Below, one piece after another: positions 30,293-34,657 of a DNA stretch of 64,000 nucleotides. The notes under the pieces were generated by a model. It saw only the letters and a program-made list of their open reading frames with translations, made no database searches and had not been told where the DNA came from. The stretch lies in contig JALWTA010000030.1 in assembly GCA_027082955.1 (NCBI GenBank), positions 1 through 64,000 of the forward strand. The letters run 5' to 3'. The stretch comes from Sulfurovum sp. Lineage in GTDB: Bacteria; Campylobacterota; Campylobacteria; Campylobacterales; Sulfurovaceae. A program made the position numbers and the translations under genes. How positions within the stretch are numbered: the stretch's first letter is position 1; every line of letters begins with the position of its first letter.

Positions 30293-31024
30293 ATGCTTCA
30301 AAGAGTCCTTTTCTCGGTACTGATAGTAACCATTGGTGCCCATGCGTTCGGAGATGACCTTGCACAGGCAAACCGTAACCGCATTATGCAACTGCAGCAA
30401 AAGATCGCGCAGCAGAAAGAGCGGATAGACGGCTTGACCTCTCTGATAGAGGGAATGAGTGCATCGCTTGCCAAAATGCAGGACAGTAACCCTAAAGTGA
30501 TGCAGATGGAAGAGAAGATACAGGCGCTTGAAGCTAAAGTAACGGCACTGGAAAATGAGAAGAAGCAAAGAGATAAACTTGTCCAACGCAGTGCAGTGAA
30601 GCAAAATCATCAAACAACAGCAGCCGGTCATAGTAGGACTGATGTTTCACTGAAAACAAAAGCCCCCTCAAAGCTCTATAGCGAAGGGGTACGGATGTTT
30701 GTCAAAAAACAGTATAACGAAGCGGCAAAACGCTTTACGGTCTGTGCAAAGAAGGGGTACAAACCGGCAGCATCGAACTACTATCTCGGTGAGATCGCCT
30801 ACTATACCAAGCAGTATGATGATGCGATTTTCTACTACAAAAAAAGTGCGGGGCTGTATGACAAGGCAGGATACATGGATGTACTGCTGCTGCATACAGC
30901 GATCTCTTTGGAGAGAACGGGCAAAAAGGTGCAGGCAAAAGCCTTTTATGAGAATGTTGCAGAGAGTTACCCGGGCAAAAAAGCAGCTGCTATTGCCAAA
31001 AGGAAATTAAGAAAGCTGAAGTGA
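30293..31024 (+). CDS. Tol-Pal system protein YbgF/CpoB-like (coiled coil + TPR)
   Basis: N-terminal coiled coil, C-terminal TPR with YSEGVRMFVKKQYNEAAKRF; follows pal. Confidence 0.85.
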   Translation: MLQRVLFSVLIVTIGAHAFGDDLAQANRNRIMQLQQKIAQQKERIDGLTSLIEGMSASLAKMQDSNPKVMQMEEKIQALEAKVTALENEKKQRDKLVQRSAVKQNHQTTAAGHSRTDVSLKTKAPSKLYSEGVRMFVKKQYNEAAKRFTVCAKKGYKPAASNYYLGEIAYYTKQYDDAIFYYKKSAGLYDKAGYMDVLLLHTAISLERTGKKVQAKAFYENVAESYPGKKAAAIAKRKLRKLK

Positions 31025-31617
31025 TGCGCTTATCCCTGCTTTTGCTCCTCTTTTTTTGGACATTCAGCCTGAATGCCCAGACCCAATATGATCCCGATGC
31101 TCCGTTAGTTCCACTCAAACGTGAACTTGTTCCCCTTGGCAAAACACTTTTTCAGGTGATTGATTTAAAAACCGGGCACAGCCGTACGGTTGACCTGACA
31201 GGGAAGGATTTTGTGCTTGTATCTGTCCGTGAACCGAGAAGTGACGGACGTTTTTATGCTGTGGACAGGGACGGTACTGTATGGCTTAGCGGAGCGGTTG
31301 CTTCCGGAGCACCGCAGTTTCGCAGCCCTTCAGGTGTCTTTCATGTGCTGGAAAAGCAGCGCTACCATATGTCCAACCGCTACCCAGATGAGAGCGGCGT
31401 GAACAATATGGACTATATGATGAAATTTACCAGATGGGGGCATGCACTGCATAAGGGAAGTACCGACTGGATGTCACACGGGTGCATCCATGTTGACCCC
31501 AATCAGGTCGCGACACTCTTTCGCTGGGTACGTTTAGGGATGCCGGTAGTCATTACACGGCACAGCTATATGCCGTTTGCCAGACCCGATCTGAGACGAA
31601 TTTATCTGCATCGATAA
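31024..31617 (+). CDS. L,D-transpeptidase (YkuD domain)
   Basis: MKFTRWGHALHKGSTDWMSHGCIHVDPNQV: HxxxSHGCIH-type catalytic motif; signal peptide. Confidence 0.82.
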   Translation: MRLSLLLLLFFWTFSLNAQTQYDPDAPLVPLKRELVPLGKTLFQVIDLKTGHSRTVDLTGKDFVLVSVREPRSDGRFYAVDRDGTVWLSGAVASGAPQFRSPSGVFHVLEKQRYHMSNRYPDESGVNNMDYMMKFTRWGHALHKGSTDWMSHGCIHVDPNQVATLFRWVRLGMPVVITRHSYMPFARPDLRRIYLHR

Positions 31618-31682
31618 AAAGTGTTGATTTTTATGTTTTCTTTTTGCTAAGATATGACAAATTAGCATAAAAAGGAAAGAGT

Positions 31683-32426
31683 ATGGAAACGCCTCAAGTA
31701 AGCAGTGAGAAACTGGATGAACTTGCAGAAAAGGTGGTCAATGTAAATGATAACCTTACCAATGTGGAAGGTAAAATTTTGTTGGGTGTGCTAAAAAGTG
31801 CGACCAAGAACGATGAGAAGATAGGTGATATGGATGTTAGGGTACTTGAGATGCTGACTTCACAAGTTTTGTACAGGTTTGACAGGTTGGCAGAGAGAAT
31901 GGAGGCACTTGAGGCACAGCAGGAAGATATATTGCATCGTATAGATCGTATCGGTAAGCGTTTGCAATCACATACAACCGATATTGAAAACAATGATATT
32001 GATGTGGAAGAGATCGCCGAGCATGTCGCCTCTCTCGCAAAAAACGGCATCAACCACATCACCAAAGAAGAGGCACAAAAGCAGCTCAAGCTCAAAACCC
32101 AGCTCGCCAAAGAGAGCATCGACATGGCAGACCCGCAGGCAATCCAGTTCGCAAGCCCGCAGGTCAAAGCCGTCTATGATGCACTGATGCCGGAGATCAG
32201 GAAGGAGCTTGATAAGATGAATGATGAGTTGTTTAAAGGGCTCAATGATCTCGGTGGGGCGGTTGCTGATCTTACTGGTACAGCAGGAGGAAGGATAAGT
32301 AATGACATTGGTATCGTAGCACGTCGCATAGATGCCCATGTTGCAAATCTTCAATCAAGTTTGAGCAGTATAGATAGCAAAATTCGGGATATTCGAAGTG
32401 CTCGGGGTGGAGTTTACAGAAACTAA
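31683..32426 (+). CDS. Hypothetical coiled-coil protein, 247 aa
   Basis: Open frame with heptad-rich charged sequence; no family recognised. Confidence 0.6.
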   Translation: METPQVSSEKLDELAEKVVNVNDNLTNVEGKILLGVLKSATKNDEKIGDMDVRVLEMLTSQVLYRFDRLAERMEALEAQQEDILHRIDRIGKRLQSHTTDIENNDIDVEEIAEHVASLAKNGINHITKEEAQKQLKLKTQLAKESIDMADPQAIQFASPQVKAVYDALMPEIRKELDKMNDELFKGLNDLGGAVADLTGTAGGRISNDIGIVARRIDAHVANLQSSLSSIDSKIRDIRSARGGVYRN

Positions 32427-32438
32427 AAGAGGGCTGTT

Positions 32439-32972
32439 ATGAGAAAAATACACAATGAAAGTTTTGGCAAAAGACAAACAGGCAAGTGGGAAGCATCCAA
32501 CCAAAACCCCCTCCCCAAATCCCCCGCCGAGGAGGTCTCGGAGCATATCGTCGTCCCCGACGTGACCACCGAAGGGTCGTTGACGGTGATGGCTGCCATC
32601 CCGCCGTACTTTCTTGAGCATGCCGGGCGCGACCTTGAGTCCATCACCGAGGCAGAGACCCGGAAATACCTCAACAACGACCTGAGCATGCGGCGCTTTG
32701 CCGTGGGAAAGCTCGGTGAGCACAACCTCCGCAACAAGTGGGAGCACAGAGACCTCCACGCCACCTTCAAGAAAAAGGGCGTCGCCTCCCCCGGACTCTT
32801 CCTTGCCCAGACGCTCGAAAGCGACGCAAGCCGCCTGCTGACCACCGATGAGCTGACCAACAACGCTGTCAAGGCGGACAACTATCAGTTCTTTTTGAGG
32901 AACGCTTCTTGTTCCACATCTCCTGATGTGGAACGTAAATGTACAGAGGTGGCTGCAGGATTTTATGTATAG
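32439..32972 (+). CDS. Hypothetical protein, 177 aa; GC-rich body with REP-encoded C-terminus, possibly truncated
   Basis: Open frame; body (about 32505-32885) visibly GC-richer than flanks; C-terminus CSTSPDVER is encoded by the 24-bp palindrome. Confidence 0.5.
   Translation: MRKIHNESFGKRQTGKWEASNQNPLPKSPAEEVSEHIVVPDVTTEGSLTVMAAIPPYFLEHAGRDLESITEAETRKYLNNDLSMRRFAVGKLGEHNLRNKWEHRDLHATFKKKGVASPGLFLAQTLESDASRLLTTDELTNNAVKADNYQFFLRNASCSTSPDVERKCTEVAAGFYV
32911..32934 (+). repeat. REP palindrome family B, copy a: GTTCCACATCTCCTGATGTGGAAC
   Basis: 10-bp perfect arms, 4-nt loop; preceded by CTT. Confidence 0.92.
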
Positions 32973-33106
32973 TAAGAAAGTATGCGAAACAACGATAGAA
33001 AGTTTCTTCCGCAAATCAAGCAACGGTCAAATTTTTTGTTTGCATAGAAAACGATAATAGTTGTTGTTAGGTTGGCACTGGGCGAATAGGGGGAAGATGG
33101 GACGAA

Positions 33107-33135
33107 GGGGGGGAAGGAAAGTGGAACTTTCCCCC
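33107..33135. repeat. Bulged G/C-run hairpin next to REP copy b
   Basis: GGGGGGGAAGGAAAGT-GGA-ACTTTCCCCC. Confidence 0.55.
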
Positions 33136-33148
33136 ATATTCCGTGTTT

Positions 33149-33172
33149 GTTCCACATCTCCCGATGTGGAAC
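33149..33172 (+). repeat. REP palindrome family B, copy b: GTTCCACATCTCCCGATGTGGAAC
   Basis: 10-bp perfect arms. Confidence 0.92.
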
Positions 33173-33235
33173 ACGCGCGAAATGGAATATTGGATTTTGA
33201 TTATGGAGATAGATTAGATTTTCTATGCCTAAGGC

Positions 33236-33259
33236 GTTCCACATCGGGAGATGTGGAAC
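33236..33259 (-). repeat. REP palindrome family B, copy c (inverted): GTTCCACATCGGGAGATGTGGAAC
   Basis: Reverse complement of copy b; followed by AAG. Confidence 0.92.
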
Positions 33260-33304
33260 AAGGTTTAGAAAAAACTTGCAATATGAAGAACAGTAAAATA
33301 GCAG

Positions 33305-33838
33305 ATGGGAAGAAGCAGATATAAGATATATGAACCTACATATCCTCACTTTGTGACATGTACAGTATTGCACTGGCTACCGATATTTACAAGAAAAGAG
33401 AGTGTGGGGATTATATTGTCCTGTTTACAGTTTCTTCAAAAAAATGCCAATCTAAAACTTTATGCCTATGTTATTCTTGAAAACCACTTACATATGATTG
33501 TTCAAAGTGATGATTTGGTAAAAACGATGAAATCGTTTAAACAGTATACGGCAAAAGAGCTATTGGTGCTTCTTAAGAAAGAGAATGCAAAAACCATTTT
33601 GGAACAACTTCATTTTTATAAGAAAGCGCATAGAAAAGCGTCAAACTATCAAGTATGGGAAGAAGGATACCAGCCTAAATTGATTCGGACAGAGAGTATG
33701 ATGATTGGCAAAATAAAATATATTCATGAAAATCCTGTTAAACGCGGTTATGTTGATGAGGCGAAACACTGGAGATATAGCTCTGCCAGAAACTATGAAG
33801 GCATGGAAGGGTTGATCGAAGTTGAGAAGTTTTGGTGA
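33305..33838 (+). CDS. REP-associated tyrosine transposase (RAYT / Y1 transposase, IS200-like)
   Basis: HUH motif in ENHLHMIVQS; Y1 region KIKYIHENPVKRGYVDEAKHWRYSSARNY typical of RAYTs; flanked by REP palindromes. Confidence 0.92.
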   Translation: MGRSRYKIYEPTYPHFVTCTVLHWLPIFTRKESVGIILSCLQFLQKNANLKLYAYVILENHLHMIVQSDDLVKTMKSFKQYTAKELLVLLKKENAKTILEQLHFYKKAHRKASNYQVWEEGYQPKLIRTESMMIGKIKYIHENPVKRGYVDEAKHWRYSSARNYEGMEGLIEVEKFW

Positions 33839-33857
33839 ATCAATGAGGTAAATAGGT

Positions 33858-33881
33858 GTTCCACATCGGGAGATGTGGAAC
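33858..33881 (-). repeat. REP palindrome family B, copy d (inverted): GTTCCACATCGGGAGATGTGGAAC
   Basis: Identical to copy c, including following AAGG. Confidence 0.92.
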
Positions 33882-33892
33882 AAGGGTAAAAA

Positions 33893-34657
33893 CTATTTAG
33901 AGAGTTCGAGTGCCTTTTTGTAGGCCTTTTCAACGGCTTCCATGCATGAGGCACGTACTTTACCTTTTTCCAGAGCGCTGTAGCCGGCAGCGGTAGTGCC
34001 GCCGGGGCTCATGACACCGTCTTTGAGCAGGGCGGGATGGACATCCTGAATGAGTTTGCCAAAGCCTCCAAAGAGTCCGCGCATGACTGCCATGGCATCC
34101 TCTCTGCCAAGCCCCTCTTTGACTGCACCGTCAGCGAGTGCTTCGGCGATGAGCGCAAGGTATGCAGGACCTGACCCTGCCAGTGCGGTAGCGATGTCGA
34201 GAGCCTTTTCACTCTCCAGCCATAACACTTCACCCGCACCGCGCAGCAATACTTCTGCTTCTTCTTTATGGTCGGCATCGCCGGTCAGCGTGGTCATGGA
34301 AGCCCCTACCGATGCGGCGAGGTTTGGCATGGCGCGGATATAGGCTTTGCTTTTGAGCTTTTTTTTGAGTCTCTCCACCGGTACACCGGCAAGAATGGAG
34401 ATGAGCAGTTTTGCTTTGCCTTTGAGCTGTTTGGCAACCTCTTCGAGATTGCCGGGTTTGACGCAGAACAGTACAGTTCTGTCTGTGATGTCGAACTCCT
34501 CAAGAGTGTGTTTTTGCACTTTTTTGCCAAGCGCTTTTTCAAATGCATCAAGATGGTCGCTGTTGCGTCCGACCACTTCGATGTTATATTTGCCCTTGAG
34601 TCCCTGTGCGATACTCAATGCCATATTGCCGTTTCCGATAAAGGTGATGGTCTGCAT
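33893..34657 (-). CDS. proC: Pyrroline-5-carboxylate reductase
   Basis: ITFIGNGNMALSIAQGL; MSPGGTTAAGYSALEKGKVRA. Confidence 0.96.
   Translation of the reverse strand: MQTITFIGNGNMALSIAQGLKGKYNIEVVGRNSDHLDAFEKALGKKVQKHTLEEFDITDRTVLFCVKPGNLEEVAKQLKGKAKLLISILAGVPVERLKKKLKSKAYIRAMPNLAASVGASMTTLTGDADHKEEAEVLLRGAGEVLWLESEKALDIATALAGSGPAYLALIAEALADGAVKEGLGREDAMAVMRGLFGGFGKLIQDVHPALLKDGVMSPGGTTAAGYSALEKGKVRASCMEAVEKAYKKALELSK

Follow-up and report, generated by a model that had tools for sequence, protein, structure and literature searches.

The 64,000-nucleotide stretch of Sulfurovum sp. contig JALWTA010000030.1 analysed here, which as a whole we call the window, probably contains a RAYT-REP unit (REPtron) that was acquired horizontally and belongs to a branch of Campylobacterota RAYTs resembling subclass 2.6 or Bertels Group 5. 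The unit has a foot of its own, CTCG in the family and CTTG in the window, rather than GTAG; hairpin recognition, the position of cleavage and strand transfer are what we infer for it. The four palindromes of the window are probably hairpins recognised by the RAYT. CTCG-tagged units of gene and hairpins make up a previously unlabelled family in relatives of Campylobacter, the present host being a deep-branching one, and the Campylobacterota-like character that a preliminary description had read from the sequence is borne out.

Exact matches to the 24-bp palindrome occur at 32911-32934, 33149-33172, 33236-33259 and 33858-33881 of the window, with a chance expectation of 0 in 100 dinucleotide shuffles, which confirms the positions, perfect arms and loops first described; a fifth copy is not present within the window at up to three mismatches. 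REP a (32908-32935, plus strand; foot CTTG, stem GTTCCACATC, loop TCCT) sits inside the last codons of ORF2. REP b (33147-33174, plus strand; loop TCCC, foot TTTG) is the left partner of the RAYT unit, and its position and orientation match those of the upstream REP of relatives' RAYTs. REP c (33235-33262, minus strand; foot CTTG) is inverted and makes a REPIN-like doublet with b, the arms being separated by 63 nt, and REP d (33856-33883, minus strand; foot CTTG, minus-strand loop TCCC) is the right partner of the unit. Read on the forward strand, the loops are TCCT in a, TCCC in b and GGGA in c and d, so that a and b are direct and c and d inverted. The CTT/AAG flank noticed earlier in three of the four copies is, in the TCCY orientation, the 5' foot CTTG of a, c and d, replaced by TTTG in b, and the asymmetry of the palindrome does reside in loop and foot. 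The RAYT gene is enclosed by b and d, which match each other perfectly as inverted repeats over 28 nt; interleaved with this pair is a second inverted one, a and c (28 nt, 96%). As single strands the hairpins fold stably (-10.6 to -13.4 kcal/mol), and their designation as REP-like hairpins of the RAYT is upheld.

The enclosed gene (33305-33838, plus strand) encodes a TnpA_REP-like HUH/Y1 nuclease of 177 aa. Its identification as a RAYT from an HUH motif and a Y1 region holds up: it scores 97.9 bits against NCBIfam NF047646, "REP-associated tyrosine transposase" (cut-off 80), and translation and alignments show the HUH motif NHLH (H61, H63) and the putative nucleophile Y139 within YIHENP. Other models match less well, with 21.9 bits for the Pfam Y1 model, slightly below its cut-off of 23, and 14.2 bits for the IS200/IS605 model NF033573 (cut-off 55); the sole PDB match, a weak one, is the E. 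coli TnpA_REP structure 4ER8, and an AlphaFold model (mean pLDDT 54) is too poor to use. The open reading frame is intact, with all catalytic motifs kept in the alignments, and its G+C content of 35%, against 46% for the window, places it among the window's lowest-G+C stretches. Where other family members mostly have YIH[NQH]NP and WQ, the window RAYT has YIHENP and WE. P124 and K125 align with E100 and H101 in the GTAG-contacting region of the E. coli RAYT, and K125 is invariant across 18 family members; judged from the alignment, the replacement would fit a changed guide and is no proof of one.

The unit lies within a lineage-specific insertion (31618-33892) between an L,D-transpeptidase gene (31021-31617, plus strand) and proC (33893-34657, minus strand). 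These convergent genes are 2-29 bp apart in 19 of the 20 relatives in which both could be placed within 1.5 kb, and 910 bp apart in the other, whereas the gap in the window measures 2.27 kb. Horizontal acquisition of the RAYT unit at this locus is the best reading. Also within the gap are ORF1 (31683-32426), encoding a coiled-coil protein of 247 aa, and ORF2 (32439-32972), encoding a 177-aa protein that has no family match; both are possibly cargo of the same insertion. The pair recurs in G001 (L008), adjoining a metallophosphatase-like gene, and ORF2 is found in that genome alone among 200 relatives. REP a recodes the ORF2 C-terminus: the G001 homologue ends in FLRNIGAAKLN before its stop, seven residues past the common FLRN. 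Coding genes at L039 (G052) and L064 (G087) likewise appear to gain a short REP-encoded C-terminal tail from a REP at their 3' end. Two candidates for genes split by a RAYT unit are both better read as insertions at the 3' end of one gene, with an unrelated gene alongside.

In the rest of the genome (2.10 Mb in 48 contigs, 95.6% complete) the exact palindrome has no match with up to three mismatches, nor does the b-c doublet recur, and the palindrome is thus not a dispersed REP here. Its restriction to the locus is the outcome that the preliminary description had itself named as telling against its proposal, and because of it the "complete RAYT-REP system" claimed there is unsupported as stated. 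What fails is the part about dispersed cognate REPs. A wider palindrome family, however, has five dispersed copies in this genome, occurs in 84 of 200 relatives and is strongly associated with the RAYT family. The five are CTCG/TGCATA REPs with other stems: two form an inverted pair adjoining thiO (C45), and another, upstream of guaA (C33), has a partner that is slightly degenerate. Only one RAYT of this family is encoded in the genome; one further Y1-like protein there matches it with 23% identity.

The pattern first described is in fact too specific, and the family emerges once the stem is allowed to vary between a fixed foot, CTCG, and a fixed tail, TGCATA. Counts of the exact palindrome in relatives returned scattered matches with compensatory changes, which is why a stem-free motif was adopted. 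The RAYT itself has matches in 76 of the 200 relatives (E<=1e-6); identity is 60-84% for the best copies, and many matches are fragments. Around 54 distinct full-length copies a common design appears, outside-CTCG-[TTCC(C/A)N..loop..N(G/T)GGAA]-TGCATA-inside on the left and its inverse on the right; the left hairpin typically lies within ~150 bp of the ATG, and the right mostly 13-91 bp past the last codon. In 34 of the 54 a palindrome is detected on both sides, with equal stems in 32, or 33 if one register shift is allowed; some copies have no palindrome detectable at the settings used. The motif CTCGNYCC-N10-16-GGRN-TGCATA accounts for the 84 relatives, and a reversed-pattern control for 0; as this search imposes CTCG and TGCATA, their conservation is best judged from the alignment of RAYT surroundings, where they are not imposed. 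Copy number reaches up to 35 per genome, a lower bound since MAGs can lose or collapse repeats. Among 130 distinct REPs at the loci examined there are 28 different 9-nt arms; the motif exists in at least 28 stem versions, and its foot has a T-rich stretch ahead of it. The inner five pairs of 70 22-mers are Watson-Crick in 95%, against 47% with shuffled partners, and stem positions 5-8 use several pair types, as expected of covarying arms. Not every stem is perfect: in the 23-mer class a T-G wobble is constant and a C-C is left unpaired. The window departs from this consensus: its tails lack TGCATA, and CA directly follows GGAA in b and d but not in a and c.

For the stem-free motif, the correlation with RAYT presence suggested as a check is strong. 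Of the 58 genomes that carry the RAYT family 54 have the motif, as do 25 of the 130 that lack it (Fisher p=8e-23 overall and p=1.5e-6 within genus, relatedness being ignored in both), 12 genomes with unclear RAYT matches having been left out. Its mean count falls from 8.3 in genomes with a full-length RAYT to 3.8 in those with fragments only and 0.7 in those with no RAYT; the 25 genomes with the motif and no detected family RAYT are explained only by loss or by incomplete MAGs. Stem type and RAYT are co-inherited: mapped on the tree of 54 RAYTs, stem type changes 12 times (minimum 9), compared with a mean of 23.0 after shuffling, and 0 of 200 shuffles is as low. The RAYT is also under purifying selection, with dN/dS of 0.04-0.13 in seven pairs with measurable dS.

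Both the gene and the repeats vary in location among genomes. RAYT copies of different genomes have almost no common neighbours (6 locus pairs among 54 loci), and REPIN insertion sites are species-specific in gene-level data, sister species lacking the REPIN in the corresponding intergenic gap. Upstream of guaA this genome has a REPIN, as do G018 and G075, though theirs have other stems; G009 has one lone REP there, and no REPIN is present in G050, G056, G076, G073 and G002. Between thiC and thiO many relatives have <=15 bp, against 293 bp, including a REPIN, in this genome. Many dispersed copies in other genomes are likewise ~110-bp inverted pairs, or REPINs. Their two stems differ in 21 of 24 and agree in 3, whereas the two ends of a RAYT agree in 33 of 34 (p=1e-11). 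There is no evidence of selection for unequal REPIN ends: 3 of 24 doublets have equal stems, and pairing the ends of each genome at random would give 5.3 (P=0.13). When one doublet served as a DNA query, copies with a common interior turned up in G010, G007 and G012, which suggests that some doublets, at least, multiply as units. In most doublets the interiors are unrelated or have diverged too far, and a view of the interiors as unrelated, taken from 17 pairs, was partly wrong. Many of the same gaps hold other inverted repeats, TAGGGTGC.../...GCACCCTA and TAGGGTGTTGT.../ACAACACCCTA (L180-L209 at thiC-thiO, L223 downstream of proC), which fall outside the CTCG family. At L050 and L054, in two genomes, RAYTs with different stems each have a 152-aa neighbour, on opposite sides; the two neighbours are 98% identical and may represent another mobile element.

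How might such a unit work? By analogy with its family, the RAYT would be a single-strand-specific HUH/Y1 nuclease that recognises a hairpin of ~20-24 nt on the strand bearing foot, hairpin and tail. The parts recognised would be the foot CTCG (CTTG in the window), the fixed outer stem TTCC/GGAA, a TCCY-type loop and the tail TGCATA, with the variable inner stem of ~5 bp specific to each RAYT lineage. TGCATA places CA just after the hairpin, and if the guide model tested for GTAG REPs applies, T2 and G4 of CTCG would select this CA as the cleavage site; for CTTG, T2/T3 and G4 would do so. Given the CTTG feet and the tails that lack TGCATA, the predicted CA site is not conserved in the window. 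The feet point outward at both ends, which means that paired REPs fold on opposite strands, as in BIMEs and REPINs. Through cleavage and strand transfer the RAYT may then insert REPs and ~110-bp REPINs into intergenic sites, by copying or by moving them, while the unit spreads horizontally among genomes and decays; here it would be a recent arrival between the L,D-transpeptidase gene and proC, with extra palindromes (a, c) so far only beside itself. Against this reading stand the window stem, undispersed in its own genome, and the low copy numbers, 5 here and at most 35. A bolder proposal, which we regard as doubtful, is that a new guide code, CTCG selecting CA, is joined to an inner stem that serves as an exchangeable specificity cassette: each RAYT lineage would have one stem on both its ends and move with it as a unit, and at any one site dispersed REPs would give way to REPs of other lineages, which would leave REPINs whose two ends differ.

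Could the unit instead be an autonomous insertion sequence? The RAYT and its flanking hairpins (b to d, ~740 bp) would then transpose whole, like IS200/IS605 (subclass 1.1), and the extra palindromes would be remnants of earlier copies. The equal ends of RAYT copies (32-33 of 34, against 3 of 24 dispersed pairs), their presence at unrelated loci, the fragments in many genomes and the low G+C all agree with this. The two systems have in common the HUH/Y1 type of nuclease and hairpin ends. IS200/IS605 elements, however, have a Y-Q motif, ends on the same strand and near-identical copies within a genome, whereas the window has YIHENP, a Y-NP motif, with inverted hairpin ends and a single copy. 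Near-identical multiple copies within one genome are not seen, though MAG assembly may hide them, and the gene is missing from most dispersed copies. On balance an autonomous element is possible and rather unlikely.

Somewhat less probable still is a decayed REPtron, in which RAYT and palindromes are now inactive in this genome. The feet and tails of the window deviate from the family consensus and its stem has no dispersed copy, which speaks for decay, but the reading frame is intact with every catalytic motif, the pairing of b with d is perfect over 28 nt, and all four stems are perfect. That the palindromes instead regulate adjoining genes, as terminators or operators acting in RNA or DNA, with the RAYT incidental, is very improbable. 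REP d does sit between two convergent genes, and the hairpins are stable as single strands; by eye, no U-tract follows the hairpin on either strand, for which reason an intrinsic terminator was rejected, and the same architecture surrounds RAYTs beside unrelated genes, with stem type following the RAYT tree.

The preferred reading, a horizontally acquired RAYT-REP unit, finds its closest counterpart in subclass 2.6, or Bertels Group 5 (PMC6006769), a likeness of length and motifs: 177 versus 179 aa, NH[LIV]H, YIHxNP, an SS motif, an alphaC-beta4 insertion absent from the E. coli RAYT, and non-GTAG hairpins beside the gene. The subclass motifs are YIH[QN]NP and WQ, compared with YIHENP and WE in the window; its published members are mostly Bacteroidetes rather than Campylobacterota. 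Its hairpins, described as atypical, weaker and devoid of GT[AG]G (PMC6006769), have no stated common foot, in contrast to the strong hairpins, uniform CTCG foot and TGCATA tail found here, and Bacteroidota plasmid homologues (31-33% identity) have no CTCG/TGCATA-type hairpins.

RAYT-REP units, their coevolution and local clustering of REPs are already known (PMC2817692), the clustering near a RAYT being reported for marine gammaproteobacteria. Canonical GTAG REPtrons and REPINs of E. coli, Pseudomonas and Stenotrophomonas (PMC2817692, PMC3116915, PMC8266576) share with the present unit a RAYT between two inverted REPs, RAYT-REP coevolution and REPIN doublets. They differ in the foot, GTAG or GTGG instead of CTCG (CTTG in the window), and in copy number, which runs to hundreds there and from a few to 35 here, with the cognate stem undispersed; the CTCG family has in addition a conserved 3' tail and REPIN ends usually unlike in stem, and in the guide region the E. 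coli residues E100 and H101 give way to P124 and K125. Published work shows that single-stranded REPs are cut at CT or CA by RAYTs of Groups 2 and 3, and that for one of these RAYTs the choice between the dinucleotides is made by bases of the GTAG foot (PMC8266576). TIRtrons (PMC3733652) also have a RAYT-like gene between inverted repeats; their long terminal repeats contain GGGGWSAS, which is absent here. GTAG and CGTC repeats have been reported from epsilonproteobacteria (PMC3733652), and the CGTC repeats, tagged palindromes also reported in Sulfurovum NBC37-1, are not linked to a transposase or RAYT, unlike the CTCG family. No description of the CTCG/TGCATA family was found in the open-licence papers searched, supplements aside, where a prior mention is possible.

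RAYT-REP systems are the best-known domesticated bacterial transposases, yet GTAG REPs of the gammaproteobacterial Groups 2 and 3 are the only ones for which guide and cleavage rules have been tested. With its uniform non-GTAG foot, its conserved tail and its 28 or more covarying stems, each of which goes with its own RAYT, the CTCG family constitutes a natural key-and-lock set. It makes directly testable what guides a RAYT to its hairpin and whether the foot is a general guide. The family also explains a class of hairpins, in Sulfurovum-type genomes, of which the papers searched yielded no description.

Named records of homologues come from Sulfurovum, Sulfurimonas, Sulfuricurvum and others. 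The family extends beyond Campylobacterota, since the gammaproteobacterial Salinivibrio kushneri plasmid NZ_CP114587.1 (L139) carries a RAYT 57% identical to that of the window, along with four hairpins that have the family's foot and tail. The phage records searched and the viral contigs contain no RAYT of this family, and the motif occurs in only 9 viral contigs. The Salinivibrio hairpins all have one orientation and lie downstream of a gene for a type I restriction subunit. One MAG contig (L074), whose record title is Helicobacter pylori PMSS1, has a family RAYT that groups with Sulfuricurvum sequences, and its label is probably wrong.
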